This document shows positions 18,180-20,666 of a stretch of DNA of 64,000 bases, piece after piece. The notes under the pieces are model-generated. The model searched no databases, was not told the origin of the DNA, and saw only the letters and a program-made list of their open reading frames with translations. How positions within the stretch are numbered: position 1 is the stretch's first letter; the number at the start of each line of letters is the position of its first letter. The translations under genes and the position numbers were made by a program. The DNA comes from Neobacillus paridis (GTDB lineage: Bacteria; Bacillota; Bacilli; Bacillales; Cytobacillaceae), in NCBI RefSeq assembly GCF_016765675.1, contig NZ_JAESWB010000045.1, positions 62,001 to 126,000 of the forward strand, given 5' to 3'.

Positions 18180-18470
18180 TGTAATTATCATATTATAATG
18201 CTTAGACATTATATCATTTGGCCCGAATCAAACCTCCTCATTGCTCACCTAATATTCTTTTTGGCAGCTCAAATTCTTCCAAATTATTACTCAAAGCACA
18301 TTACATATATTTTTAAAATATGGTAAATATATACATCATAAAACTAGTAAAATAATGGTGATAATAGTAGAATAATAGGGTAAACTAGTCGAGGGGTTAG
18401 AAAAAAGATACTCGCTTAAAGCCAGTGGATGCCGATACCATGTTTTTTTACATAGATGGGGGGGAACGTT

Positions 18471-19916
18471 ATGAATAACGCGCAATATGAATTAACGGAA
18501 GAAATGAGTAGAATGAAGAAAAACTCCATTAAATGGTATAAGAATTGGAAATTTATGATAACAAGCACCATTATCGTGTTAGCACTCTTAATTGGAGGAA
18601 TGAGCTATTATCAAGCGACCCGGTTCAATTCGCAAATTACCATAAATGATACTAAAGTGGGCGGGCTGACTGCTGAAAAAGCAGTTAAAAAGTTGAAAAC
18701 CGCTATTTTGGCAAACAGAGTTTATGTTGGAAAACAGCAAATTTTAGATGCAGAAGACACAAAGATGGGGTTTACCGATGATGATTTGCCTGAAGTAAAA
18801 AAAATACTAAAAAGCCAATGGTCTTTCTTTCCTTCCTTTAAGAAAAAAAATTATCTGCTTATTCCCAAAGAAGCTGATCAATATCGCAGCGTCACGCTGA
18901 AAAAGCTTGTTGAAGAAAAGCTTGTCACCATGAATAAATCTTTAAAAGCGCCTGTAAATGCCCAGGCTAAGTTAGAGCAGGGGCAAATTGTTATCAGCAA
19001 AAGCGAGAATGGAGAGCAGTATGATATAGCCAAACTAATGAAGGATTACGAAAAACAGGAATTTAAAAGCGATATTCGTCTGAAACCGGTATTCCTGCAG
19101 CCGATTAAGGAAGACAGTCAGATTGTCAAAAACGAAGAAAAGAAACTGCGAGAACTCCTAAAGCAGACGATTGACTATAAAGTACAGAAAAAAGTCTATT
19201 CATTAAAGGCCAGTGAACTAATCAAAAACGCCACTGTCTCCAAAGATATGAAGATCACTATCGACCCAAGCGAAATCAAAAACAAAATTACGGAAATAAA
19301 TGAAAAACAGGCAACTTTAAATAAAGATATTCCGTTTAAGACCAGTTCAGGTAGAATCGTTACCGTAAAAGCTCAAGGCTACGGCTGGGCCATAGATGTT
19401 GATAAAGAAGCGGCTCTGCTTCAAAAGGCTTTTGTAAAAGGAGATAAATCGGTATCGGCAACAAATATTTATGGCAATGGCTGGAGTAATGAAGGCATCG
19501 GATATGAAAACACCACCAATAACGGGATTGGCGACACCTATGCAGAAGTGTCTATTTCGCAACAGCGCATTTGGCTTTATAAAAATGGAAAAATGGTTCT
19601 GTCCACCCATGTGGTAACGGGAAAACACATCACCGGTGAAGATACAGAAAAGGGGATATGGTATATCCTTTATAAGCGAACACAGTACACACTAAGAGGC
19701 AGTGCAGTTGGTAAATCTGAATATGCGATTAAAGTAAATTACTGGGCACCGTTCACAAACAGCGGTCAAGGATTCCACGACGCCAGCTGGCGCACGAATT
19801 GGTCAAGTAATGCTTATCTTACGGCAGGTTCCGGCGGCTGCGTCAACACGCCACCAAGCGTTATGGGGACAGTGTATAACTATCTCAGCACCTACGAACC
19901 GGTTGTTATTTATTAA
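18471..19916 (+). CDS. Membrane-anchored L,D-transpeptidase (YkuD domain) with peptidoglycan-binding repeats
   Basis: Start ATG 18471 after GGGGGGAACGTT; an in-frame ATG at 18456 overlaps that ribosome site. 481 residues. One N-terminal membrane segment (about 25-45, FMITSTIIVLALLIGGMSYY) leaves the rest outside the cell. Residues 50-330 are a lysine-rich region with two putative peptidoglycan-binding (PG_binding_4-like) domains. The C-terminal YkuD domain begins near YAEVSISQQRIWLYKNGK; its active site is GSGGCVNTP (nucleophile Cys), with HDASW upstream. It should form 3-3 cross-links or attach groups to peptidoglycan. It is a single gene with a strong terminator. Confidence 0.9.
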   Translation: MNNAQYELTEEMSRMKKNSIKWYKNWKFMITSTIIVLALLIGGMSYYQATRFNSQITINDTKVGGLTAEKAVKKLKTAILANRVYVGKQQILDAEDTKMGFTDDDLPEVKKILKSQWSFFPSFKKKNYLLIPKEADQYRSVTLKKLVEEKLVTMNKSLKAPVNAQAKLEQGQIVISKSENGEQYDIAKLMKDYEKQEFKSDIRLKPVFLQPIKEDSQIVKNEEKKLRELLKQTIDYKVQKKVYSLKASELIKNATVSKDMKITIDPSEIKNKITEINEKQATLNKDIPFKTSSGRIVTVKAQGYGWAIDVDKEAALLQKAFVKGDKSVSATNIYGNGWSNEGIGYENTTNNGIGDTYAEVSISQQRIWLYKNGKMVLSTHVVTGKHITGEDTEKGIWYILYKRTQYTLRGSAVGKSEYAIKVNYWAPFTNSGQGFHDASWRTNWSSNAYLTAGSGGCVNTPPSVMGTVYNYLSTYEPVVIY

Positions 19917-19930
19917 AAATATAAAACTTA

Positions 19931-19968
19931 AAAGGAGCAGGAAATCGCAAGTGATTTCCTGCTCCTTT
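19931..19968. terminator. Bidirectional terminator between the L,D-transpeptidase and CueP-like genes
   Basis: AAAGGAGCAGGAAATC (19931-19946) is perfectly complementary to GATTTCCTGCTCCTTT (19953-19968), with a six-base loop and T-rich flanks on both strands. It serves two convergent genes. Confidence 0.85.
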
Positions 19969-19976
19969 ATTATGAT

Positions 19977-20513
19977 TTACATCAGCTTCATCGTTGTTAT
20001 ACAAGTAGGGGCATCTTTGAACGTAGAGATTTCTGCGCCCGCTTTTTTTCCGTCCTGCTCAATCTTTATTTGATACTTTTTATCCCGCGGCAGCCATAAA
20101 TCGATAAATCCATTCTTTTGGGACTTAACCATCTTGTCCAATATAACTTGGCCTTCCGCATCTTTAATGTATACTTTAAACTGTTTATTGGTTAGTTCAC
20201 CTTGACAACCTGTCAAGCTATGAGTCGTTCAAGGATGGGTATTTTTAACATAAGGAGCAATCGAAACAAAGAATTCATCCTTAGGCAAGTTATAAGCCGT
20301 CTCGTTTCCTTTTTTGTCTGTCACAACTAGTTGCTGCGGCGTGATCGAGGCGTTTTCCACCTTTTCGTTACCACCGCTATATTCACTTACCAATTGCTTA
20401 ATGTTAGTCGTTTCCTTTTGCTTTACGGACTTTCCTTCATCTGTACCTGTTCCGCTACAGGCAGTTAATACGGATGCTGTCAATAAAGCAGCCATCATGA
20501 GCTTTAATTTCAT
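19977..20513 (-). CDS. CueP-like metal-binding lipoprotein, probable selenoprotein
   Basis: The frame from ATG 20513 to the stop at 19977 is interrupted only by one TGA (20229-20231) at codon 95; reading through gives 178 residues. The lipoprotein signal is MKLKLMMAALLTASVLTAC (lipid-anchored C19). The body matches CueP: QLVVTDKKGNETAYNLP, FFVSIAPYV, LTGCQGEL, NGFIDLWLPRDK, ISTF and C-terminal CITTMKLM. TGA stands where the family has the first of three conserved metal/redox cysteines: position 95, with C103 and C171 remaining (Salmonella CueP uses C96, C104 and C172). A SECIS-like hairpin lies just downstream. I read residue 95 as selenocysteine. A nonsense mutation or sequence error is the alternative, but nothing else in the gene is decayed. 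It should act on the outer face of the membrane in copper binding. Confidence 0.72.
20201..20217 (-). promoter_or_regulatory. Candidate bacterial SECIS hairpin in the cueP-like mRNA
   Basis: On the minus strand: CTTGACA (20217-20211), loop GGT (20210-20208), TGTCAAG (20207-20201); seven perfect pairs. Eighteen bases lie between the TGA and the loop G, within the usual 16-37 range, and the loop starts GG, as in the glutaredoxin hairpin. Confidence 0.6.
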
Positions 20514-20666
20514 GCAGTTGCCTCAACTCCTTTTCCCTTTCTTCAAACCATTTTACCTTTTTTCTACTTGTCGGGCGCTATTCTCATTGTATTCTTCACA
20601 ATTCTTTCACATTATTTACAATTATTTACTTTCGATTCGTAAAGAAAATATTTCAGTGACTCAACT

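Follow-up and report, generated by a model that had tools for sequence, protein, structure and literature searches.

The closest described relative of the protein considered here is CueP of Salmonella, which binds copper and has been proposed to transfer the metal from CopA to SodC. According to the available parts of the same sources, it obtains Cu+ from ScsB/ScsC (PMC13201067, PMC7558416). A plasmid copy of Salmonella CueP carrying the C104S change (equivalent to C103 in the protein below) fails to restore copper resistance, as stated in the accessible portion of a 2026 paper (PMC13201067). Selenoproteins of prokaryotes were inventoried in 2026, and that work counts 119 families and subfamilies. 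In the portion of it available to us CueP is absent, other metal-handling proteins are present, and for some of the predicted ones a metal-ligand role of Sec is proposed (PMC13188914). Likewise, no selenocysteine form of CueP was seen in the accessible parts of the deep-Sep report (PMC12013277) and of a 2022 review (PMC9312934), nor in the titles and abstract openings of literature pairing CueP or copper with selenium or Bacillus, although such a form may already have been reported elsewhere or annotated in a database only. The NCBIfam name of the CueP family model NF038094 makes no mention of selenium.

We analyzed a 64,000-nucleotide stretch of the Neobacillus paridis genome (the window), in which a sequence-only reading had noted a CueP-like lipoprotein gene divided by a TGA codon. 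The coordinates given for this gene, 19977-20513, are correct, and its coding strand is the minus strand (20513 to 19977). The two halves form one open frame when the single TGA, at codon 95 (20231-20229), is translated as a residue. A plain reading with translation table 11 instead ends cueP at this TGA and yields 94 residues. The features of the locus, all on the minus strand, are as follows.

20527-20533, minus strand: ribosome-binding site AAAGGAG, 13 nt upstream of the ATG (identified by eye)
19977-20513, minus strand: cueP gene with one in-frame TGA, encoding 178 residues and ending in TAA
20457-20513, minus strand: signal peptide and lipobox LTAC, with predicted lipidated Cys 19 (read by eye)
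20229-20231, minus strand: TGA codon 95, read as selenocysteine, at the alignment position of the first of CueP's conserved cysteines
20201-20217, minus strand: SECIS-like hairpin with 5' arm CTTGACA (20217-20211), loop GGT (20210-20208) and 3' arm TGTCAAG (20207-20201)
20205-20207, minus strand: codon for C103, the second conserved Cys, within the 3' arm of the hairpin
20001-20003, minus strand: codon for C171, the third conserved Cys
19934-19965, minus strand: inverted repeat with a trailing run of T directly past the cueP stop, a probable intrinsic terminator (identified by eye)

The LTAC motif is one that we take to be a lipobox. Judging from its sequence, the terminator, which lies between cueP and a convergent gene on the plus strand (18456-19916), is probably bidirectional.

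Membership of the product in the CueP family is evident from profile searches, with 155.1 bits for PF21172 (cut-off 27) and 193 bits for NF038094 (cut-off 60). The score for NF038095, which describes the copper metallochaperone in the narrow sense, is 139.8 bits and falls below the cut-off of 195. We therefore assign the window protein to the CueP family but outside the narrow model, and the function of Salmonella CueP need not apply to it. The solved structure of Salmonella CueP (4gqz) is matched with an E-value of 5e-30, and it has a cysteine where the window gene has its TGA, as the earlier reading had stated for the first metal cysteine. The alignment to 4gqz is gap-free from residue 95 to residue 171, which confirms that C103 and C171 are retained with the correct spacing. 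In Salmonella numbering the three cysteines are C96, C104 and C172, and the TGA takes the place of C96. An AlphaFold2 model, built from 56 of the sequences described below and with Cys substituted for Sec, has a mean pLDDT of 85, with most of residues 1-30 below 50. When this model was used as a Foldseek query, the three best hits were chains of 4gqz (E 2e-16 to 1e-15), and by this model the window protein has the CueP fold.

The genome carrying the window (424 contigs, 100% complete, 4% contamination) encodes the machinery for selenocysteine insertion, the absence of which had been named in advance as evidence against a selenoprotein. We found SelA (561 bits), SelB (369 bits), SelD (404 bits, with its own in-frame TGA) and tRNA-Sec (66.2 bits, compared with a gathering score of 47). 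Three other TGA-containing selenoprotein genes are present, namely those for SelD, FdhA (L226; G000 C165:144468-146486, 804 bits) and a SelW-like protein (Rdx), with one in-frame TGA each in the latter two. The SelW-like gene adjoins selD; on contig C371 of this genome (G000), selD (L011, with TGA), the SelW-like gene (L225, with TGA and a CMMU motif) and selA (L001) lie within about 7 kb, at roughly 34-40.8 kb. When the 50 nt past each TGA were folded, hairpin loops of GTT (SelW-like), GGTCT (FdhA) and GGT (CueP) were obtained. The corresponding region of SelD forms two hairpins, of which the one closer to the TGA codon has a TGA loop and the more distant one a GTT loop; either may serve. Each of the four genes thus has a hairpin with a GU-containing loop downstream of its TGA, although in SelD this is only the second of the two. 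The first selenoprotein implied by the earlier reading's word “second” was not found. Among 104 TGA-joined frames examined in the window, three had a SECIS-like element under a relaxed criterion, and the two besides cueP look unconvincing by eye.

Homologues were then compared at the codon in question. A total of 190 intact CueP genes, including that of the window, were assembled, of which 118 have TGA at codon 95, 72 have TGT or TGC, and none has TAA or TAG. Since each gene was ended at its first TAA or TAG and broken copies were excluded, it is partly by construction that the 190 contain no other stops. Left out of the set were two duplicates (L053, L054), copies that are broken, short or at a contig edge (L131, L132, L133, L134, L199, L200, L202, L203), repeat retrievals of copies from the family sample (L169, L171), and weak or fragmentary matches in the family sample (G140, G141, G176 and the second hit of G023) and the order sample (two pieces on G392:C13, G375:C1:888565 and G396:C263). 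TGA at codon 95 and complete pairing of the hairpin are likewise seen in four of these dropped copies (L131, L132, L200 and L202). Within the window's family, a CueP match (E <= 0.001) occurs in 108 of 193 genomes, a few of the matches being fragmentary; with the two duplicates dropped, codon 95 is readable in 108 genes, 91 with TGA and 17 with TGT or TGC. CueP was found in 88 of 397 genomes drawn across the order and in 9 of 398 drawn across the phylum. Only two genomes of the phylum-wide draw have the TGA form, both from the window's own family, and among the sampled genomes the selenocysteine form is therefore seen only in this order, where 112 sampled species carry an intact TGA-containing cueP. 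The 23 plasmid records and 4 phage records matched by CueP include none in which a single place covers 80% of the query.

On the best tree, the selenocysteine and cysteine forms have interchanged at least 20 times, gains and losses being counted together. This number is rough, given the shortness of the tree, its weak support and the fact that no more than 8 such contrasts fall on supported branches. Some genomes carry several copies, such as the three TGA copies in G182 (L074, L090, L115). One selenocysteine and one cysteine copy occur together in G045 (L062, L124) and in G224 (L136, L187), both of which bear SelA.

The surroundings of cueP are variable. Using open-frame clusters in flanks of up to 1.5 kb a side, the most widespread neighbor was present at only 6 of 30 family loci, and a shared cueP operon was rejected on these grounds. 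The convergent gene 3' of the window's cueP has counterparts in 3 close relatives (4 of 30 loci in all), and no copper gene was recognized by eye adjoining cueP in the window. Upstream, the motif TTGTGA occurs within 150 nt in 16% of 189 cueP genes, compared to 5.5% in mononucleotide shuffles, and in 21% of 117 selenocysteine genes and 8% of 72 cysteine genes. This enrichment is too weak to name a regulator. Four loci (L023-L026) share a AAAAAAGGTAMAATGGT-like stretch upstream of the cueP start together with TTGTGA-like half-sites.

Taken together, the machinery, the TGA shared by 118 of 190 genes, and the selection and hairpin conservation detailed below support the selenoprotein interpretation. 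The sequence evidence points strongly to a real selenoprotein, and the product of the window's cueP is almost certainly one. Very probably, it is a full-length CueP lipoprotein whose UGA at codon 95 is decoded as selenocysteine by way of the hairpin, with copper or redox chemistry as proposed here. We infer the steps from selenium insertion through export and lipid anchoring to the chemistry as follows. SelB and tRNA-Sec would decode the UGA, with the hairpin that starts at +11 nt directing insertion, and the lipoprotein would be exported and lipid-anchored on the outer face of the membrane. There, Sec95, Cys103 and Cys171, together with His93 and His98, would most likely form a surface site that binds Cu(I). 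Sec95 and Cys103 might also make a quickly reversible selenenylsulfide, and we propose that the site could in this way be re-reduced after oxidation outside the cell. The protein would thereby buffer or deliver copper, possibly to a lipoprotein-like SodC as a client; a SodC gene with a lipobox-like start is present in the genome. Given the lack of a recurrent neighbor and the homology to Salmonella CueP, the copper role is transferred by homology, and we consider it likely that the site handles copper. That selenium is a direct copper ligand at some stage is a more tentative proposal. Selenols are softer ligands, and their oxidation is faster and reversible; we infer the role of selenium at the CueP site from this general chemistry.

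The most serious alternative accepts the selenoprotein but gives it a different main job, either thiol/selenol redox chemistry (scavenging of peroxide or hypohalite, or disulfide exchange) or the binding of another soft metal, with copper being incidental. Redox functions are ascribed to most selenoproteins (PMC13188914), and Salmonella CueP has been credited with protection against Cu2+/H2O2 (PMC9181168) and is induced by N-chlorotaurine (PMC13201067), in each case according to the portions of these sources at hand. The score below the NF038095 cut-off also fits this alternative. However, the CueP metal residues are invariant in 190 of 190 intact genes (positions 95, 103 and 171, with U counted as C, and H93 and H98). 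Furthermore, the protein lacks a CxxU or UxxC motif, since Sec95 and C103 are spaced as U-x7-C. We regard such a main job as less likely than copper handling by a selenocysteine-containing CueP.

Selection on the two sides of the TGA was assessed by dN/dS (Nei-Gojobori) among the TGA genes, keeping pairs whose dS lay from 0.2 to 1.5 for each of the two parts. This left 446 usable pairs of 6,903 possible, which are not independent. Past the TGA (codons 96-177) the median dN/dS is 0.13, compared with 0.21 for the preceding part (codons 30-94); for codons 107-177, which lie beyond the hairpin, it is 0.15 (866 pairs). The low values past the TGA imply that the downstream half is translated and selected. 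Random decay of this half in relatives sharing the TGA, which the sequence-only reading had offered as grounds for giving up its proposal, is not what the 118 TGA genes exhibit.

These data also bear on the idea that the UGA is a selenium-sensing switch, such that the 94-residue short product or early release is itself functional and the full-length protein is made only when selenium is ample. Conservation of codons 30-94 is in keeping with a useful short product. However, codons 96-177 are at least as constrained, every metal site except H93 lies at or after codon 95, and the 72 cysteine homologues encode the full length without recoding. A switch thus appears quite improbable.

Possession of the TGA form was also compared with that of SelA, which was scored by the best E-value per genome and exceeds the cut-off in 172 of 193 family genomes and 181 of 397 order genomes. 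SelA is present in 110 of the 112 genomes with intact TGA-containing cueP. The two with none over the cut-off are incomplete assemblies (G179, 81%, and G183, 80%), and G183 has a sub-cut-off match with an E-value of 5e-26. Among genomes with only the cysteine form, 24 have SelA and 38 lack it, with 7 further genomes outside this count. The association is strong when kinship is ignored (Fisher p 1.5e-19), whereas kinship-corrected independent pairs give 2.5 in the same direction, 1.0 in the other and 3.4 equal (p 0.6). Because 24 genomes with SelA carry only cysteine CueP, selenocysteine is not indispensable.

The hairpin following the TGA was described by the sequence-only reading as having 7 bp and a GGT loop and as lying 18 bases downstream. 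The stem and loop are real, but the distance needs correcting, since the stem starts 11 nt past the TGA and 18 is the distance to the loop. The minimal element of E. coli fdhF is 17 nt long and starts 11 nt after its UGA. All seven pairs and the GGT loop, starting 11 nt past the TGA, are found in 118 of 118 TGA genes, compared with seven pairs in 4 of 72 and the GGT loop in 22 of 72 cysteine genes. As a measure of chance, the window contains 2,447 TGA trinucleotides when its two strands are counted, and only 3 of them are followed by a 7-bp hairpin with a 3-nt loop at exactly +11, and the loop starts with GG in one of these. Codon use is similarly restricted: Leu100, Thr101, Gly102, Cys103 and Gln104 are each encoded by nearly one codon in the TGA genes of the family sample (n = 89), and several codons are used at these positions in its 17 cysteine genes.

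Two hairpin pairs have been altered on both sides, from U-A to C-G and from A-U to G-C. On a quick tree, with G-U states included, the first changed at least 5 times and the second at least 4. The covariation score is 0.191, compared to 0.114 for shuffled data, with 0 of 500 shuffles as high (29 distinct hairpin sequences), and it ranges from 0.026 to 0.136 when the partner is slid along. Of the five covariation measures, the two based on numbers of pairs or of pair types fail to rise above the shuffled data, 117 and 483 of the 500 shuffles reaching as high a value. When independent pairs were compared on supported branches, 6 associate the hairpin with the TGA, 0 run the other way and 2 are equal (p 0.03). 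An Rfam search of 19900-20600 at lax thresholds gave only sub-threshold matches, mostly on the terminator, and none with E <= 5 that overlaps the hairpin. One cysteine gene (L216 in G520, with TGC) retains an intact hairpin in a genome with no SelA over the cut-off, and this looks like a fossil of recent selenocysteine loss.

The frame that remains open past the TGA would also be expected if the UGA were decoded as cysteine or tryptophan, or leakily suppressed, with no involvement of selenium. However, TGA acts as a normal stop elsewhere in the window, where it ends 8 of the 41 stop-to-stop frames of more than 200 codons. Moreover, it occurs at no other codon in any of the 118 frames, although the broken copies L132 and L202, which have extra TGAs, were left out of this count, and the hairpin persists in the TGA genes but has largely disappeared from the Cys genes. 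We consider such decoding very improbable, and reassignment of the stop codon was rejected on account of the ordinary TGA stops and the tie between hairpin and TGA.

Decayed cueP copies do exist (L199 in G350, L202 in G537), but the chance that the window gene is explained by gene decay with a nonsense mutation, or by an error of sequencing, is negligible, and a pseudogene was rejected, given the same TGA in 118 intact genes of different genera, the purifying selection past it, the lack of TAA and TAG at codon 95, and the fact that the clearly decayed L199 carries its TGA at a different codon and belongs to a genome without SelA among the matches listed. In this decaying second copy, site 95 is Tyr, site 103 is TGA and there is one more stop.

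A selenocysteine-containing CueP would add a selenoprotein family whose fold is not among the usual redox folds and whose selenium sits at a presumed copper site. We suggest, tentatively, that a widespread extracytoplasmic copper protein of Bacillaceae-type bacteria uses selenocysteine as a direct copper ligand or in a Sec-Cys redox pair at the copper site, which would tie the handling of copper on the cell surface to the cell's supply of selenium. Because natural selenocysteine and cysteine forms coexist, even in one genome, the contribution of selenium to copper chemistry is directly testable.

Compared with Salmonella enterica CueP (4gqz; PF21172; NF038094), the window protein has the same fold and the same three metal-cysteine positions with identical spacing, but Sec replaces the first Cys, the protein looks like a Gram-positive lipoprotein, and it scores below the NF038095 cut-off. 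Its hairpin equals the minimal element of E. coli fdhF in length and starting position. With the SECIS-dependent bacterial selenoproteins FdhA, SelD and SelW-like, it shares the UGA, the downstream hairpin and the SelA, SelB, SelD and tRNA-Sec machinery; it differs from them in having, by model, a CueP rather than a Trx-like fold and in the missing CxxU or UxxC motif. Sec is likewise predicted in other putative metal-handling proteins, namely the SO_0444 Cu/Zn efflux transporter, CopZ-family (2Fe-2S) proteins, SaoB/SaoC and MbdU, but CueP belongs to a different protein family, one missing from the table in the available part of that inventory (PMC13188914).
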